From the IMG/VR virus record IMGVR_UViG_3300048032_000136, positions 1-31,123 of that record: a stretch of 31,123 nt of DNA; one strand, given 5' to 3'. The notes under the pieces are model-generated. The model searched no databases. It had not been told where the DNA came from and saw only the letters and a program-made list of their open reading frames with translations. Shown here one piece after another: positions 6,594-19,291 of this stretch. Position 1 is the stretch's first letter, and each line of letters begins with the position of its first letter. A program made the position numbers and the translations under genes. The DNA comes from a virus.

Positions 6594-7594
6594 TGGCTTT
6601 AAGTAAAATCACAAACGCCTCTGTCGCTGACAATGCGGTGCATGGGCGAAGGAATATTGTGACCAATGGGGAAATGGTTATCTCGCAACGGGGAATTGAC
6701 ATTAACTCTTTGGGAGAAACTGGATACTCAGCCGACCGTTTTAGGACTCGAACATACGGTGGTAACGGTAGATTTGATTATGACCAAGTTACAGATGTTG
6801 TGCCAAGTAGCACTTTTAAGTATGCCGCTAAATATACCGTTTCAACAGCGGCAACAGATGTTGGGTCTTTCGGTTATTCTGTGCAACAGGTCATTGAAGG
6901 TCACAACATTGCTCAATTAAGGATTGGTAGGTCGGACGCAAAACCGTTTACAATAAGTTTCTGGGCAAGGTCATCAGTATCTGGCACATACAGTTCTGGG
7001 GTTGCCACAGCTTCTGGAGACATTTCTTTTGTAACTGAGTTCACGCTTGTGGCAGACACTTGGAAATATATTTCCTACACAGTACCCGCTTACACAACCA
7101 GTGTTCCTACAAATCTTAATGAAACAAATGGTAGTGGGCTATTCTTTACAGTTATTGGGCTGGCATCACAAACCTCTAAACAGACTAGCACATTAGATGC
7201 GTGGCAAAGCGGTAACTTTGTTTTTTCTAGTAACCAAACAAACTTTATGTCAGCAACTACCCGCACAGTGCATATCACAGGCGTCCAGCTTGAGGTAGGC
7301 GATGCGTCACCTTTTGAGCATCGGTCATTCGGTGAAGAACTGGCGGCGTGTCAGAGGTACTATTTTGAGATTAATTGGGATACTACTGAACGCCCGCTAG
7401 GTGCTAACTACAATTCTTCTAGAAGCGTATGTACTCAATCATTTCATGTGCAAATGAGAACAGACCCGACAGTAACTTCCACTTTTGCTGTCGGTGGATT
7501 ACAGTCTGATTATTCTAACGAACACTGCTTTAGGTGGTACGGAAACCAACAGCAAATTTCAGTTTCGTCAGCAAAAGCAGATGCGGAGTTGTAA
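6593..7594 (+). CDS. Tail / receptor-binding protein, carbohydrate-binding-like
   Basis: 333 residues starting at ATG 6593 inside the previous stop. The N-terminus has the pattern RRNIVTNGEMVISQRG followed by YSADRFRTRTYG. The middle is a beta-sandwich-like region (FTISFWARSSVSGTY, TWKYISYTVPAYTT). Near residue 230 it has GVQLEVGDASPFEHRSFGEE followed by LAACQRYYFE. These are hallmarks of a widespread phage tail or receptor-binding family with a carbohydrate-binding-like fold. It probably contacts the host surface. Its place among other fibre genes supports this, but the ligand cannot be read from the sequence. Confidence 0.78.
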   Translation: MALSKITNASVADNAVHGRRNIVTNGEMVISQRGIDINSLGETGYSADRFRTRTYGGNGRFDYDQVTDVVPSSTFKYAAKYTVSTAATDVGSFGYSVQQVIEGHNIAQLRIGRSDAKPFTISFWARSSVSGTYSSGVATASGDISFVTEFTLVADTWKYISYTVPAYTTSVPTNLNETNGSGLFFTVIGLASQTSKQTSTLDAWQSGNFVFSSNQTNFMSATTRTVHITGVQLEVGDASPFEHRSFGEELAACQRYYFEINWDTTERPLGANYNSSRSVCTQSFHVQMRTDPTVTSTFAVGGLQSDYSNEHCFRWYGNQQQISVSSAKADAEL

Positions 7595-7785: not shown

Positions 7786-8615
7786 TGCCCTATATAGGTA
7801 AAGACCCAGTTATCGGTGAGTTTATCGAACTAGATGCTTTGACTGCATCAGCCACCGCAGACTACGCACTCACCAGAAACGGTGCGGCATACAAGCCAGC
7901 AACAGTAAACAACCTACTGGTCAGCATCAACGGTGTTATCCAAGGTGGTTCAACCATGAGTCTGTCAGGTAACACTTTGACGGTTGGTGCTACTCTATCA
8001 TCATCAGACACGATTGATTTCGTCAGAGTTCTAGGCAGTGTTGGCAATGTGTCAGAGCCTACAGATGGCTCAGTTACATCTGCTAAGTTGGCTAATGACA
8101 TTGCTGTTAGTACATTAGATGTTGCTACTATCAGAGCCAGCAACGGTACAACTGCGGCTACTATCCAAACTGATGGCACAGTCATCATGGGTGGTAATCT
8201 TATTAGCACTGCAATGACTACCAACACTACACGCAAAGACATAAGCAGTGGTTCTGGCTTTCAAGACACTGGTTTATATATGCCTTCAATTACCCCCAAA
8301 AGCACAGCATCTAAGTTTCTTATGAATTGGAATATTACTTGCCACACCAACTCTACCAATGGAACAGATGAATTTGAATTTGCTGTTTACAGGTCAATAG
8401 GTGGTGGCTCTGATGTGGAACTTGTTACAAGTATTAATTTTGTCCGTGGGTCATCTGGTGTAAATGACCATACAGAAAGTGTTTCTTATTTAGATGCCCC
8501 AAGCACAACCTCTGCGGTTGTATATAAACTGTACGCCAAAATAGTAGCTGGTAACATTCACATTAATCCAAGCAACAAAAGGCAAGTGTTTATCATTCAA
8601 GAGTTAGCAGGATAG
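7785..8615 (+). CDS. Tail fibre module protein
   Basis: 276 residues from ATG 7785. Residues about 35-110 form a beta-rich module (NNLLVSINGVIQGG, LSGNTLTVGATLSSSDTIDF) ending in EPTDGSVTSAKLANDI. This is the same design as the N-terminus of the ORF at 5511. The C-terminal 120 residues (LYMPSITPKSTASKFLMNWN, SYLDAPSTTSAVVYKLYAKI, NKRQVFIIQELAG) are paralogous to most of the next protein. It therefore looks like an attachment module joined to a receptor-binding head. Function as a fibre is inferred from this architecture and the context. Confidence 0.78.
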   Translation: MPYIGKDPVIGEFIELDALTASATADYALTRNGAAYKPATVNNLLVSINGVIQGGSTMSLSGNTLTVGATLSSSDTIDFVRVLGSVGNVSEPTDGSVTSAKLANDIAVSTLDVATIRASNGTTAATIQTDGTVIMGGNLISTAMTTNTTRKDISSGSGFQDTGLYMPSITPKSTASKFLMNWNITCHTNSTNGTDEFEFAVYRSIGGGSDVELVTSINFVRGSSGVNDHTESVSYLDAPSTTSAVVYKLYAKIVAGNIHINPSNKRQVFIIQELAG

Positions 8616-9295: not shown

Positions 9296-9523
9296 ATGCA
9301 ACATGTGTTCTTGCTCCTAGTCTTCATAGGGACAGGCGAGTACAGAGCATTGACCAGTAGCGATATGTACTTCGCTGACATCAACCGTTGCAACTACTTC
9401 GCATCCCAAATCTCAAAACGATACGGCAACTATAGTTACTCTGACTTCGTAGATGCGAAGGACAGGGTGACTGCGTATTGCATCCCCAAATATATAAACA
9501 CAGACAACGTGGAGGTTTACTGA
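9296..9523 (+). CDS. Small secreted-type protein with signal-like N-terminus (hypothetical)
   Basis: 75 residues from ATG 9296, immediately after the preceding stop. The first 12 residues are hydrophobic (QHVFLLLVFIGTG) and could be an uncleaved anchor or a signal peptide. The rest is polar and aromatic, with two Cys in CNYFASQI and AYCIPKY that could form a disulfide outside the cytoplasm. I recall short proteins with this same pattern in other marine phages, without known function. Periplasmic location and a lysis-related role are inferences from the neighbours. Confidence 0.6.
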   Translation: MQHVFLLLVFIGTGEYRALTSSDMYFADINRCNYFASQISKRYGNYSYSDFVDAKDRVTAYCIPKYINTDNVEVY

Positions 9524-9976
9524 ATGATTGACCCAGTATCGGCCTTTGCTGCCGTATCTGCTGGACATTCCGCTATTATGAAAGCTGTGCAAGTAGGCAA
9601 AGATTTGTCTTCATTAAGTAATGCAATGGCTAAGTATGCACAGGGTGAAGCAGAACTTCAGTTTGGGGCAGCACAAAAGAAAAAATCTAGATTCTCATTT
9701 GCTGAAGACAGCGCAATCGAAAAGCATTTTCGTAAAGAAAAACTTGACGATATGCGTAACGAGCTTCGCTCTATATTCCAACTTTATGGAAAACCAGGTC
9801 AATGGGAAAGGCTTCAAGCTGAGATAGCTACTGAGAGAGCCAGAATTCAAAAAGAATTAAACTTAAAAGCACATAGAAAAGAACAACTACAAATCTGGTG
9901 TACCGTCATTGCAATGGTGGTAGTGGGTGGTGGTGGTTTCCTTTGGTATGTGCTTTGGCTCAAAGGAGCAATGTAA
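9524..9976 (+). CDS. Membrane-anchored helical protein (hypothetical, 150 aa)
   Basis: 150 residues from ATG 9524 with GTGGAGG upstream. The N-terminal 35 residues (DPVSAFAAVSAGHSAIMKAV) are helical and Ala-rich. Residues 55-120 are strongly charged and predicted coiled (KEKLDDMRNELRSIF, ERARIQKELNLKAHRKEQL). A single membrane span lies at about 123-145 (IWCTVIAMVVVGGGGFLWYV). I recall the same arrangement in tail/lysis-region proteins of marine phages, where function is unknown. It may be a membrane-linked lysis or spanin-like factor, but I see no lipobox. Confidence 0.6.
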   Translation: MIDPVSAFAAVSAGHSAIMKAVQVGKDLSSLSNAMAKYAQGEAELQFGAAQKKKSRFSFAEDSAIEKHFRKEKLDDMRNELRSIFQLYGKPGQWERLQAEIATERARIQKELNLKAHRKEQLQIWCTVIAMVVVGGGGFLWYVLWLKGAM

Positions 9977-11249: not shown

Positions 11250-11443
11250 ACAAAATACCAACTGCTCCTAAAAAAACAGATAAGTACAAAAAACAAGTAA
11301 CTAGTGCGCCAGTGTTTTCTAGTAGAGAAGCGGCTCTAAAACACCGAAAAGAAAAAGGTGGGACAGTGGCAGTAGATATGGGCAGTTACCATTTATACAT
11401 ATTTCCAAATGGAAGCACTTCGTCTATCGGAAAACCGAAATGA
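11246..11443 (+). CDS. Small basic protein (hypothetical, 65 aa)
   Basis: 65 residues from ATG 11246 (ATGA overlap with the lysozyme gene; GGAG upstream). The N-terminus is Lys-rich (APKKTDKYKKQ). The remainder (FSSREAALKHRKEKGGTVAV, SYHLYIFPNGSTSSI) could form a small alpha/beta unit. I do not recognise the family. It overlaps the small terminase gene by four bases, so lysozyme, this gene and terminase are probably translationally coupled. Confidence 0.6.
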   Translation: MNKIPTAPKKTDKYKKQVTSAPVFSSREAALKHRKEKGGTVAVDMGSYHLYIFPNGSTSSIGKPK

Positions 11444-11646
11444 GCAGAGAAATCCTAGACTCCCTGCATGATGCAGTAAGCCAAGAGCTACTTGCTCGTG
11501 TCCGTACTGGCGAAGCTACAGCCTCAGAGTTATCCGTAGCCGTTAAGTTTCTCAAAGACAACGGAGCCAGCCTAGACGTTATAACTGCTGAGTCTCCTAT
11601 GGGTAACCTCCTAGAGAGCCTGCCGTTTGAGTCAGTAGTTAACTAA
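11440..11646 (+). CDS. terS: Terminase small subunit (T7 gp18-like)
   Basis: 68 residues from ATG 11440. The sequence (LDSLHDAVSQELLARVRTGE, then ATASELSVAVKFLKDNGASL) matches the N-terminal helical DNA-binding part found in many short T7-like small terminases. It recognises concatemeric phage DNA and guides the large subunit. It is shorter than T7 gp18 (89). The partner, large terminase, lies about 1.07 kb downstream, separated by the oxygenase-like gene. In T7 only the small Rz genes lie between the two. Confidence 0.72.
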   Translation: MSREILDSLHDAVSQELLARVRTGEATASELSVAVKFLKDNGASLDVITAESPMGNLLESLPFESVVN

Positions 11647-11656
11647 TGGAGATTAG

Positions 11657-12724
11657 ATGCCCCCAAGAAATCATAAGCAGTGGCGAACCAAGCCAAGCGT
11701 AGAGTATGTAAGCTCTTACATCTACTCTGACCAAGACCTGTATGAACAAGAGATGGAAAAGATATTCTCTAAGGTATGGGTTCCTATGTGTCACATCAGC
11801 GAGATGCGTAACGAAGGAGACTTCAGAACCACAGAAATTGCTGGGGTTCATGTAATTGCATGGAATACTAGTGGTGGTGTAGTAGCAAAAAGAGATACTG
11901 GAGTACATAAGCTATCTGGTAATATGGAAGTACTCACAACTGGTTTTCCACTACACTGTGAAGTAAAACATGGTGGTATGGTCTGGGTTACCTTAGACCC
12001 AAATCCTACCCAGAGTGTGGAGGAATGGACTTGTGGTGCTTTTGTTTGTATTGCTGATGCTATTGATACCGAAGAACTGGAGGTCTTCCATTACCATAAG
12101 GCCATCATAGACACTAACTACAAGCTTTGGCACGACACAAACTCAGAGTTCTATCATGACTTCATGCACTACTTTAATCGTGTGTCTGGTTTTAACGATG
12201 AGTACTTTGCTCGTAAGAACATCCCGTTTGATAATGGGCATGTAAACGTTAGTAGCTTCACGGTTAACTACGAAGAGTATGATGGCTTTGAAGATAGAGG
12301 TGAACTCTCCTTCCCTAACCTACCCCCAAACCAATGGTACATGGTAGACCTATTCCCTGGATATAACTTCAATCTACGAGGCTCAGCTTACCGTAGCGAT
12401 AGTGTCACTCCTCTAGCACCTAACAAGGTTCTCATAGAGTTCAGAGGCTACGGCCTCAAGAGTGACAGTAAAGAAGACAGAGCTACTCGTATTAAACACC
12501 ATAACTCCATCTGGGGTGGCTTCGGACGTAACCTACACGAAGACCTAATAGGTGTAGCAGGACAAGGCACAACCATGCGCCCCGGTACTGAAGAGCGTCA
12601 TATCCTCCACGGTAGACACGAGAACGGAACAATTCACGATGAGGTTGGTATGAGACACTATTATGCTGAGTGGTCTAAATGGATAGGCGTTGATGCCAGC
12701 AATCCAAAGGCACTAGCCGCTTGA
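11657..12724 (+). CDS. Rieske-type ring-hydroxylating oxygenase homologue lacking the [2Fe-2S] ligands
   Basis: 355 residues from ATG 11657 with TGGAGATTAG upstream. The N-terminus matches oxygenase alpha subunits: EQEMEKIFSKVWVPMCH, then EGDFRTTEIAGVHVIAWN. The usual Rieske segment with its Cys-x-His and Cys-x2-His ligands is absent: only about 25 residues separate VIAWN from the post-cluster strand FPLHCEVKHGGMVWVTLDP. The catalytic non-haem iron site seems kept: NYKLWHDTNSEFYHDFMHYF gives Glu164, His167 and His171, and NLHEDLIGVAGQG gives Asp296. Without the cluster it cannot take electrons in the normal way, so it may use another donor, be a partial subunit, or have a non-enzymatic role. 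It sits between terS and terL. The stop overlaps the terL start (TTGA). Confidence 0.78.
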   Translation: MPPRNHKQWRTKPSVEYVSSYIYSDQDLYEQEMEKIFSKVWVPMCHISEMRNEGDFRTTEIAGVHVIAWNTSGGVVAKRDTGVHKLSGNMEVLTTGFPLHCEVKHGGMVWVTLDPNPTQSVEEWTCGAFVCIADAIDTEELEVFHYHKAIIDTNYKLWHDTNSEFYHDFMHYFNRVSGFNDEYFARKNIPFDNGHVNVSSFTVNYEEYDGFEDRGELSFPNLPPNQWYMVDLFPGYNFNLRGSAYRSDSVTPLAPNKVLIEFRGYGLKSDSKEDRATRIKHHNSIWGGFGRNLHEDLIGVAGQGTTMRPGTEERHILHGRHENGTIHDEVGMRHYYAEWSKWIGVDASNPKALAA

Positions 12725-14388
12725 ACGTACCAGTTCAACTGCATGACTTCAGAAACTTTCTCTTCTTGGTGTGGAAACACCTTGGCCTCCCAGAACCCAC
12801 CCCCATACAGTACGACATTGCAGAATACCTGCAGAGTAGTCCTAAACGAGCCATCATTGAGGCTTTTCGTGGGGTGGGTAAGAGCTACATTACGGCAGCC
12901 TATGTCGTTCACCAGCTTCTGCTAGACCCAGAACTAAAGTTTCTTGTCGTATCTGCATCGAAGTCTCGTGCTGATGACTTCTCCACCTTTACCCAACGGA
13001 TTATCCTAGAGCTACCTATATGTCAGCACCTAGTAGCCAAGGATACCCAACGATGGTCAAAGATTGCCTTTGACGTAGCCCCTGCTAAAGCAGCAGGTAG
13101 CCCATCAGTCAAGTCTGTGGGTGTGACAGGCCAGCTTACTGGCTCTCGTGCCGACATAATCATTGCTGATGACGTAGAAGTACCTAATAACTCCATGACC
13201 CAGATGATGCGTGAAAAGCTTGGTGAAGCAGTCAAGGAGTTTGACGCTATCCTAAAGCCAGACGGTAAGGTTGTATACCTTGGAACCCCTCAAAACGAGA
13301 TGTCCCTGTACAATACCCTGCTAGAACGTGGCTATTCGATGCGTGTATGGCCTGCAAGGTATCCTACCGTAGAAGGCTCTCAGAAGGCCTACAGTGGACG
13401 TTTAGCTCCAAGCCTATGGGAGACACTAGAGAGGGACTCAGAGGCCATCAATGGGACTCCTACGGACTCTAAACGCTTTTCTGATGAAGACTTGATAGAA
13501 AGAGAGCTTAGTTATGGCAGAAGTGGCTTCGCTTTACAGTTTATGCTTGATACTAGCATGTCTGATGCTGATAGGTATCCTCTCAAAATAGCAGACCTGA
13601 TTGTCTACCCCTGTGATATTGACACAGCACCAGAGAAACTGGTCTGGGGCATCTTCAAGCCTATTGATAGCGTCCCCAACGTGGCTTTGTCTGGTGACCG
13701 TTTCTACGCCCCAGAGGACACCATAGGACGCTCCAGATACACAGGTAGTGTTCTTGCCATTGACCCCTCTGGTAGAGGCTCTGACGAGACAGCATACGCC
13801 GTTGTGAAGATGCTCAACGGTTTCCTGCACGTTGCAGCTGCAGGAGGCATTGCTGGGGGCTACAGTGACGACACCTTGAAGACCATAGCTAACCTTGCGA
13901 AAGACCATAAGGTTAACGCTGTGCTGATTGAGAGTAACTTTGGTGACGGTATGTTCACTGAGCTACTCAAGCCTCACATGACTAAGGTGTACCCTGTGTC
14001 TATGGAGGAGGTCAGGCATAGTAAGCAGAAGGAAGCTAGGATTATTGATACTCTAGAGCCTGTAATGAACCAGCATAGGCTCGTTATAGACCCTAAAGTA
14101 CTCCAGAGAGACTACGATAGTGTGCAACATCTACCACCTGAGAAGGCCATGAGGTACATGCTGACCTACCAGATGACTAGAATTACACGTCAACGTGGTG
14201 CTTTGGCTCACGATGATAGGTTGGATGTCTTGGCTATGGCTGTGCAGTACTGGGTAGACCAGATGGCAGCAGATGCTGACAGTGAGATTAGGGTCAGGAA
14301 GAGTGAATTACTGGATAATGAGCTAGATAAGTTCATGTCTCATGTAAATACCAGTAATCATAGAGCAAAAGCTAGTTCTTGGTTCTAA
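12721..14388 (+). CDS. terL: Terminase large subunit (T7 gp19-like ATPase-nuclease)
   Basis: 555 residues, with a TTG start at 12721 in a TTGA overlap with the oxygenase-like gene. It packages DNA into the capsid. The ATPase has a Walker A-like FRGVGKSYIT near residue 50, LVVSASKSRAD, SPSVKSVGVTGQLTGSRAD and a Walker B IIIADDVE. The nuclease domain has VLAIDPSGRGSDETAYAV, AVLIESNFGDGMF and ALAHDDRLDVLAMAVQYW, which supply the acidic residues. It aligns with T7 gp19 nearly end to end (T7: 586). The last codon overlaps the phage-type promoter motif at 14383-14401. Confidence 0.97.
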   Translation: MNVPVQLHDFRNFLFLVWKHLGLPEPTPIQYDIAEYLQSSPKRAIIEAFRGVGKSYITAAYVVHQLLLDPELKFLVVSASKSRADDFSTFTQRIILELPICQHLVAKDTQRWSKIAFDVAPAKAAGSPSVKSVGVTGQLTGSRADIIIADDVEVPNNSMTQMMREKLGEAVKEFDAILKPDGKVVYLGTPQNEMSLYNTLLERGYSMRVWPARYPTVEGSQKAYSGRLAPSLWETLERDSEAINGTPTDSKRFSDEDLIERELSYGRSGFALQFMLDTSMSDADRYPLKIADLIVYPCDIDTAPEKLVWGIFKPIDSVPNVALSGDRFYAPEDTIGRSRYTGSVLAIDPSGRGSDETAYAVVKMLNGFLHVAAAGGIAGGYSDDTLKTIANLAKDHKVNAVLIESNFGDGMFTELLKPHMTKVYPVSMEEVRHSKQKEARIIDTLEPVMNQHRLVIDPKVLQRDYDSVQHLPPEKAMRYMLTYQMTRITRQRGALAHDDRLDVLAMAVQYWVDQMAADADSEIRVRKSELLDNELDKFMSHVNTSNHRAKASSWF

Positions 14389-18164: not shown

Positions 18165-19148
18165 ATGAGTATTAAAGTAAGGGGTAACGGCTTCCAAGTT
18201 TATGTAGCCGTTAATGGCAATAAGTTTCGGCGTACTGTATCCACTCGCGGCGAAGCTACGGCACTGGAGCAATCAGCAAGGCAGGCCTTAATGCTAGGCA
18301 AGCCTGTCCCAAGCGAGGGCATCACTGTCTCTCACACATGGGGTCTGAAGGAAGCTGCCGACAAATGCTACAAGATGAATTGGGTAGGTACTAAGTCTGA
18401 GTCCAAGCTTATCCTCGTGATGAACGAGGTAGTTAATTACTTTGGTAAGGACATTGACATAGCCGACATCACTACTGAACTAGTCGATGAGTTCATCATA
18501 GCTCAGAAAGAAAAGCGTAGGGCTAACGCCACTATCAATAGAAAGCTGGCCTCCCTTTCTAAGATACTACGCTTTGCCAAGGAGAGAGGTAGGTTGCCAG
18601 GTGGTATGCCTACCCTCTCACGGCAAAAGGAAGGTACAAGTAGGATACGCTTCATCACTGTTGAAGAAGAACAGCAGTGTCTAGCTACCCTAGATAGCTG
18701 GGGGTTCGATGAACTACACGATGCTTTCATTGCCTCCATCGACACAGGTATGAGAGCAGGTGAGATGGCTAAGCTAGATGCTAAGTGCATCGACAAGCAT
18801 GGCGTGTACCTAGTGGATAGGAAGAATGATACCAACGGTCTTGTTCCCCTAACCACTCGCGCACGTCAGGCTCTTGAACGCAGGATTGCAGCCAGCGATG
18901 GAGGTAAACTCTTTGGCACTTTCCCTCGCTCCAAGTGGCAACGCTTAGTCAACCATCTAGAACTGGACGATGTAGTCTGGCACACACTGAGACACACCAC
19001 ATGCTCACGTTTAGTGCAACGTGGTATGCCTCTCGTTCACGTCAAGGAATGGATGGGACACTCAGCTATCCAGACTACTATGAGGTACGCACACCTTGCA
19101 CCTAAGAACTTAGAGGTTGGTGTCTCTTTACTAGAGCAGGTAGATTGA
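18165..19148 (+). CDS. int: Tyrosine-family integrase
   Basis: 327 residues from ATG 18165. Residues 1-50 are an arm-binding-like domain, residues about 58-150 a core-binding SAM-like domain (VDEFIIAQKEKRRANATINR), and residues 160-327 the catalytic domain. The full active site is visible: Arg197 (SIDTGMRAGEM), Lys220 (DRKND), His273-x2-Arg276 (WHTLRHT), His299 (WMGHS) and nucleophile Tyr308 (MRYAHL). It catalyses site-specific recombination between phage attP and a host tRNA gene. The tRNA-Leu 54 bases downstream and flanking repeats are the expected attP. All catalytic residues are kept, so it is probably functional. Confidence 0.95.
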   Translation: MSIKVRGNGFQVYVAVNGNKFRRTVSTRGEATALEQSARQALMLGKPVPSEGITVSHTWGLKEAADKCYKMNWVGTKSESKLILVMNEVVNYFGKDIDIADITTELVDEFIIAQKEKRRANATINRKLASLSKILRFAKERGRLPGGMPTLSRQKEGTSRIRFITVEEEQQCLATLDSWGFDELHDAFIASIDTGMRAGEMAKLDAKCIDKHGVYLVDRKNDTNGLVPLTTRARQALERRIAASDGGKLFGTFPRSKWQRLVNHLELDDVVWHTLRHTTCSRLVQRGMPLVHVKEWMGHSAIQTTMRYAHLAPKNLEVGVSLLEQVD

Positions 19149-19167
19149 TTATACCTGTCGAAACTTT

Positions 19168-19198
19168 GTGTCCTTGGGTGTGTCCTAAGTGTCCTAAG
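19168..19198 (+). repeat. Three GTGTCCT(A/T)(A/G)G repeats upstream of the tRNA
   Basis: GTGTCCTTGG at 19168-19177, then GTGTCCTAAG at 19180-19189 and again at 19189-19198. A direct copy returns at 19441-19450 and an inverted one at 19426-19434, on the other side of the tRNA. Repeats on both sides of a tRNA beside int are what integrase arm-type sites look like. Confidence 0.65.
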
Positions 19199-19202
19199 TG
19201 GA

Positions 19203-19291
19203 GCGAGCATGGTGGAATTGGTAGACACACAAGACTTAAAATCTTGAGCCTTTTCAAAGGCGTGGGGGTTCGAGTCCCCCTGCTCGTACCA
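19203..19291 (+). tRNA. tRNA-Leu (UAA), complete; probable attachment site
   Basis: 89 bases including encoded CCA. The acceptor stem GCGAGCA (19203-19209) pairs with TGCTCGT (19281-19287) with one G-T pair. The anticodon stem CAAGA/TCTTG holds loop CTTAAAA with TAA at 19237-19239. A long variable arm (GCCTTTTCAAAGGC region) identifies a class II tRNA. The T arm is GGGGG-TTCGAGT-CCCCC. All parts are intact, so it could serve as a working tRNA. Position just after int makes it the likely attP identity segment. An 11-base piece of its anticodon arm recurs at 19301. Confidence 0.95.

Follow-up and report, generated by a model that had tools for sequence, protein, structure and literature searches.

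A gene lying between the terminase genes of a T7-like phage likely encodes the catalytic part of a methanesulfonate monooxygenase split into two halves, and this half most likely completes the one made by the bacterial host. We found the gene at positions 11,657 to 12,724 (plus strand) of the window, our name for the whole stretch of DNA analyzed here (31,123 nucleotides, positions 1 to 31,123 of IMG/VR virus record IMGVR_UViG_3300048032_000136). We call its product C, and we call the complementary Rieske-bearing protein of SAR116-type bacteria P. We favor the split-enzyme reading because the two proteins have reciprocal lesions, because they occur together, and because of the operon context of the bacterial genes. 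The catalytic half alone is carried by many marine phages, the window phage among them.

RESULTS

C is an oxygenase alpha subunit that lacks the Rieske cluster

The window is a 31-kb virus record from a T7-like phage that encodes an integrase and an RNA polymerase of the single-subunit type. The open reading frame (ORF) for C starts with ATG, encodes 355 amino acids, and follows a ribosome-binding site region (positions 11,646 to 11,656, plus strand, read directly from the nucleotides) with GGAG 6 nt before the start codon; it is a real, functional-looking gene. Its flanks on the same strand, which lie outside the enzyme, are terS for the terminase small subunit (11,440 to 11,646; PF11123) and terL for the large subunit (12,721 to 14,388; phrog_38); the stop codon of C and the TTG start of terL overlap. 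A preliminary description had named both terminase neighbors correctly.

The same description had called the product a Rieske oxygenase alpha-subunit homologue without a Rieske cluster, and profile match, motif absence, and predicted fold all confirmed this. The Pfam model Ring_hydroxyl_A (PF00848) matched residues 139 to 343 above the curated cutoff, and the Rieske model PF00355 matched only a 47-residue flank (residues 41 to 87), below the cutoff. The CxH-X26-CxxH motif is absent from the window protein and from every close cluster-less relative, while full-length MsmA relatives (about 409 to 435 amino acids, versus 355 for the window protein) carry it. Judged from its sequence, C cannot hold a [2Fe-2S] cluster.

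The catalytic residues of C are preserved. The bridging acid and two histidine ligands form the motif E164-FY-H167-DFM-H171 (12,146 to 12,169, plus strand), and the carboxylate ligand D296 lies in an HEDL motif (12,536 to 12,547, plus strand), both placed by alignment. We aligned 98 cluster-less proteins, 82 from phages and 16 from bacteria. E164, H167, H171, and D296 did not vary in any of these 98 or in any full-length MsmA row aligned, and H159, D160, N162, D168, N174, H294, E295, and Q303 were likewise invariant in the cluster-less proteins. The histidine spacing in C is H-x3-H, as in true full-length MsmA, whereas dioxygenases usually have H-x4/5-H. In profile alignments, E164 and H167 fall on the D-x-x-H of cumene and biphenyl dioxygenases, and the HEDL of C falls on the HDDL of IadD; E164 is the positional equivalent of the bridging acid (E-x-x-H). 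C thus has a predicted 2-His-1-carboxylate iron site with its bridging acid, in agreement with the site first proposed, and the free variation of His and Asp residues that would have spoken against that site did not occur among the 98 relatives.

The predicted structure of C (pLDDT, 85.8; pTM, 0.88) has the fold of ring-hydroxylating oxygenase alpha subunits, so that the feared lack of a helix-grip fold did not materialize either. Residues 12 to 346 of the model matched Rieske oxygenase alpha subunits with a Foldseek E value of 4e-21, and the match to terephthalate dioxygenase (7q05) had a Z score of 33.1 and a root mean square deviation of 2.9 Å over 323 residues. By predicted structure, C is a Rieske oxygenase alpha subunit minus the cluster loops. 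It shares its fold over residues 12 to 346 with the alpha subunits of naphthalene, biphenyl, and terephthalate dioxygenases (alpha3beta3; Z scores of 30 to 33), with the E/D-x-x-H aligned, but it differs from them in having no Rieske cluster, only 14 to 19% sequence identity, and the H-x3-H spacing.

The C gene belongs to a known phage gene family

HMO-2011 gp61 (YP_008320323, annotated as methanesulfonate monooxygenase, "MsmA") is 73% identical to the window protein over its full length, and among 50,697 phage records the only two strong matches were both HMO-2011 entries for gp61. The C gene is therefore already known, as the HMO-2011 gp61 gene family, and the kinship to an MsmA-like oxygenase gene of a SAR116 phage that the preliminary description had mentioned is real: it is the same gene. 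The Rieske segment of gp61 is likewise missing and its iron site likewise kept. The phage type and the gene position differ, since gp61 sits between gp62 and gp60, whereas the C gene of the window sits between terS and terL.

At least 596 IMG/VR contigs carry relatives of C. Homologues in other phages are also cluster-less, but a neighborhood next to terL was limited to the lineage of the window. In the window and six viral loci of this lineage, the order terS-C-terL is kept, with overlapping gene ends, and this arrangement could suggest that C is a structural or packaging protein, with the oxygenase fold serving as a scaffold. In HMO-2011-type phages, however, several genes separate C from terL; its neighbors in T4-like contigs are unrelated genes; and in bacteria it is part of a metabolic, methanesulfonate operon. 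Because its position is not conserved across phage types, we reject a structural or packaging role, for which the invariant iron ligands also leave very little room, and with it the idea that the gene is linked to packaging.

Some observations on gene neighborhoods may be added. Homologues of gp62 and gp60 are adjacent in the lineage of the window (window positions 9,296 to 9,523 and 9,524 to 9,976; seen in locus L001, 100% identical to the window), and in HMO-2011 the C gene lies exactly between these two genes (L081, positions 6,614 to 6,844 and 7,928 to 8,383). The gp62/gp60 cassette is thus common to two otherwise different phage types in which C is placed differently. Two C genes in bacterial metagenome-assembled genomes (MAGs) labeled Rickettsiales and Hellea lie beside phage genes for ribonucleotide reductase and a baseplate-like protein (L098, 8,001 to 9,089, and L096, 2,742 to 3,800); they are probably misbinned and probably come from a further, T4-like carrier type.

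Among HMO-2011-type isolates, C is present in the one that grows on a SAR116 host and in 0 of 15 that grow on Roseobacter or SAR11 hosts. This pattern, with its single presence, fits a dependence of C on the host.

The catalytic domain is under strong purifying selection

C can be divided into three parts, all on the plus strand. Residues 1 to 70 (11,657 to 11,866) are an N-terminal region also found in full-length MsmA, residues 71 to 105 (11,867 to 11,971) are a fast-evolving remnant of the Rieske domain from which the [2Fe-2S] ligand loops have been deleted, and residues 106 to 345 (11,972 to 12,691) are the catalytic domain. Phage and bacterial C proteins have mean identities of 61%, 30%, and 90.5% over these parts, respectively, and median dN/dS values between phage copies were 0.074, 0.118, and 0.021. 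Fourfold sites were saturated between phage and bacterial C genes (0.29 identity). As the catalytic domains have kept 90.5% identity while synonymous sites became saturated, the role of C in phages has probably not diverged from that in bacteria.

The deletion of a whole domain and the fast evolution of its remnant are what would be seen in a decaying or cargo msmA fragment with no function in the phage. The reading frames are open in the contigs examined, though, and the gene is found in several phage types. We reject decay because of the catalytic dN/dS of 0.021 and the invariant ligands, which leave it next to no chance of being correct.

Between the window and locus L005, DNA identity of the C gene is uneven: the N-terminal and remnant regions are 47 to 72% identical over much of their length, and codons 201 to 300 are 94 to 97% identical. 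Parts of the gene have therefore probably been exchanged between phages, giving it a mosaic history.

P and C have opposite lesions

A scan of 84,980 genomes returned two rings of relatives. The inner ring, found in SAR116 and in a handful of further marine genomes, consisted of cluster-less proteins of 352 to 364 amino acids with 71 to 78% identity; L096 and L098, the phage-like contigs described above, belong to it. The outer ring consisted of full-length MsmA proteins with 50 to 59% identity and the 26-residue Rieske spacer specific to methanesulfonate monooxygenase (MSAMO). All 63 full-length relatives fetched from the scan had this spacer; P has it and C does not. On sequence comparison, the closest full-length relatives of C are MsmA proteins. 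MsmA, of the MsmABCD system, has the same EFYHDFMH...NLHEDL motif as C, but its Rieske [2Fe-2S] segment is deleted in C.

P begins like MsmA, with an intact CPH-X26-CMFH Rieske motif, continues with an eroded catalytic domain, and usually ends with a Pyr_redox_2/Reductase_C reductase; with the fused reductase it is a single protein of 796 to 857 amino acids. In the ten extracted P rows and the P of genome G092, the CPH-X26-CMFH is kept, and the LWHDTNSEFYHDFMH ligands and the NLHEDL block are gone. Every C row is the reverse, with the iron site present and the Rieske motif absent. P lacks the ligands of the family and therefore cannot hold mononuclear iron by them. P is about 46 to 52% identical to MsmA-type full-length proteins and C 50 to 59%, and going by these identities and the shared motifs, P and C both derive from MsmA. 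The reductase is of another type than in the MsmA system of Filomicrobium, the operon of which has a Fer2/FNR-type reductase.

Genome G092 (2,753,527 bp), which we take to be that of IMCC1322, the host of HMO-2011, encodes both P and C. Its P is less eroded than the others and has NHDRTIKFHQDFM where C has WHDTNSEFYHDFMH: E164 is replaced by K and H167 by Q, H171 is missing, the D296 block is deleted, and the Rieske motif is perfect. Henriques and De Marco (2015; PMC4433239) mention two MsmA annotations in IMCC1322, one of them with the motif. This Rieske-bearing MsmA of the literature is probably P, an alpha subunit without an iron site.

In genome G002, P is encoded by two ORFs with overlapping ends (L174, 1,501 to 3,887), a 330-amino-acid Rieske part and a 465-amino-acid reductase part. 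Barring a sequencing frameshift, P is thus not always fused to the reductase.

P and C occur together in bacteria, and phages carry C alone

Among 136 SAR116-order genomes, 12 had C. Eleven of these had P, and in the twelfth (G008, locus L090) a contig end cuts P, leaving its last 123 residues. P without C was found in 0 of the 136, and the single SAR116-order genome with a full-length MsmA (G018) had neither. Over all bacterial genomes with C, P was present in 14 of 16; the L087 and L090 contigs end at or inside the position of P. The two genes need not be neighbors, being about 12 kb apart in some genomes (G001 and G002).

The bacterial C gene lies in an operon with genes for a beta subunit, a ferredoxin, a reductase, an NMT1-type transporter, sulfite export (TauE), and C1 metabolism, which is not so for the phage gene. 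In locus L088, the order is transporter genes, P (815 amino acids), the beta subunit (PF00866/SnoaL_4), a Rieske ferredoxin, a 274-amino-acid ORF, C, LysR, TauE, and a PanB-like gene, beyond which are ORFs that read as formate-tetrahydrofolate ligase (fhs) and FolD. The beta subunit, the ferredoxin, and the 274-amino-acid ORF recur beside C in most SAR116-type loci.

The ORF of about 275 amino acids directly before C in most SAR116 operons (L088, 6,921 to 7,745; L175, 12,555 to 13,385) has no Pfam match and may be an assembly factor comparable to NdmE. In the operon of G092 (L175, 7,912 to 12,502), a gene set for a three-subunit DMSO-reductase-like molybdoenzyme is inserted between the ferredoxin and a 276-amino-acid ORF; this insertion would couple the metabolism of DMSO and methanesulfonate.

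With P as the query, a scan of viral contigs returned no relative, and 683 kb of phage loci, together with the window, contained no homologue of P, the beta subunit, the ferredoxin, both reductase types, or the 274-amino-acid ORF. We dropped a phage-encoded electron donor from consideration on these grounds. The lack of a donor gene in the fetched phage flanks, together with invariant iron ligands and strong purifying selection on the catalytic domain, would also suit an iron oxygenase that is self-sufficient, drawing electrons from a free ferredoxin or a small reductant, and that serves a phage-specific role on a substrate of its own, perhaps other than methanesulfonate. We consider this unlikely, as it leaves unexplained the constant pairing of bacterial C with a Rieske-bearing P whose iron site is dead, and as the near identity of phage and bacterial catalytic domains at saturated synonymous sites speaks for one undiverged role. 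Of the earlier proposal of a changed electron source or a new role for C, the changed source holds up, and a new role is not needed, given that SAR116 operons pair C with a complementary P.

The tRNA-Leu gene of the window weakly hints at a SAR116-order host

At positions 18,165 to 19,291, the window has an integrase gene and, immediately after it, a complete tRNA-Leu (TAA) gene, which is likely the attP. The tRNA-Leu gene matched SAR116-order genomes at 90%, and the best of 385 sampled Alphaproteobacteria matched at 81%. The 136 SAR116-order genomes contained no exact att match and none over 33 nt with fewer than two mismatches, and the genomes best matching the tRNA-Leu gene (G120, G121, and G124) had neither P nor C. 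The tRNA-Leu gene is a weak hint that the window phage has a SAR116-order host.

DISCUSSION

The subunits of Rieske oxygenases assemble head to tail into trimers, and each cluster delivers electrons to the iron of the adjacent subunit, about 12 Å away, via a bridging acid (PMC7948474; PMC12445004), and in CntA, intersubunit electron transfer through the bridging residue Glu205 is established (PMC7948474). Since electrons cross between neighboring subunits, P and C can together make up a single functional enzyme that is split in two. A subunit without a cluster needs a neighbor that has one, and P fits. In SAR116-type bacteria, then, two complementary descendants, P and C, would replace the normal MsmA alpha subunit. 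Placed side by side and joined by the beta subunit of the host, P and C would give one productive Rieske-to-iron interface; a mixed trimer of the two subunit types would have at most one P-to-C interface. Electrons would pass from NAD(P)H to the FAD of P, then, with the Rieske ferredoxin perhaps as an intermediate, to the Rieske cluster of P, and on to E164 and the iron of C. We infer a physical complex of P and C, and its activity, from this arrangement. Methanesulfonate would be its substrate, given the descent from MsmA and the content of the operon.

During infection, phage C would add a catalytic subunit to the P, beta subunit, and ferredoxin of the host. Supplying C alone, the phage would have to rely on its host to provide P and the beta subunit, and the host of the window phage presumably encodes P. 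The benefit to the phage may be that conversion of methanesulfonate to sulfite and formaldehyde is kept up or raised, with C1 units entering the folate pathway of the host operon.

Phages carry one half only, and a lone subunit may unbalance a complex, which raises the alternative that C is a decoy: a dominant nonproductive subunit that enters the host oxygenase and stops methanesulfonate oxidation or O2 activation during infection. A decoy would not need H167, H171, D296, and E164, yet all four are invariant in 98 of 98 proteins and the catalytic dN/dS is 0.021, so we regard this alternative as very unlikely, and we continue to favor a productive enzyme made of host P and phage C.

An experimentally characterized parallel is NdmC-NdmD-NdmE, the caffeine N7-demethylase of Pseudomonas putida CBB5, in which the oxygenase subunit is cluster-less, like C, and the Rieske cluster is on the reductase protein, like that of host P. 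NdmCDE was the first Rieske oxygenase reported to be split this way, a Rieske cluster acting in trans was proposed for NdmC-NdmD, and the system was not reported as phage-borne (PMC4408171). It differs in oxygenase lineage and reductase architecture, and P still contains a catalytic domain, now dead. NdmE is GST-like, whereas we saw no GST domain in the C operons, the 274-amino-acid ORF of which has no Pfam match. With C and P descended from MsmA, a common origin with the NdmCDE split appears unlikely.

The trees fit more than one origin of the bacterial pair. In a tree of full-length proteins, bacterial C nests among phage C, and the tree of the catalytic domain gives no resolution. Topology tests rejected neither a single phage C clade (p-AU, 0.70) nor sisterhood of P and C (p-AU, 0.50). 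In the tree of full-length proteins, the larger of the two, P groups among the full-length MsmA proteins, close to sequences from SAR116 and Hyphomicrobiales. One scenario, which we think doubtful, is that phages kept and spread C, that C entered SAR116 chromosomes from them, and that the host MsmA then lost its iron site and became a Rieske-reductase donor.

Virome surveys count msmA as a sulfur-cycle auxiliary gene (PMC10134843). The available portion of Henriques and De Marco (PMC4433239) notes that the HMO-2011 protein and many virome sequences are without CXH-Xn-CXXH and contains no functional explanation for the missing motif. An explanation by a split enzyme appears to be new.

The ocean's most abundant phage groups include one that carries the C gene. 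If our reading is correct, viral "msmA" would be half of a split enzyme that works only in hosts with the other half, and the gene would be both a host range marker and a testable case of a phage subunit that completes a redox enzyme of its host. P and C would then be, after NdmCDE, the second and apparently independent case of a Rieske oxygenase split over two polypeptides.
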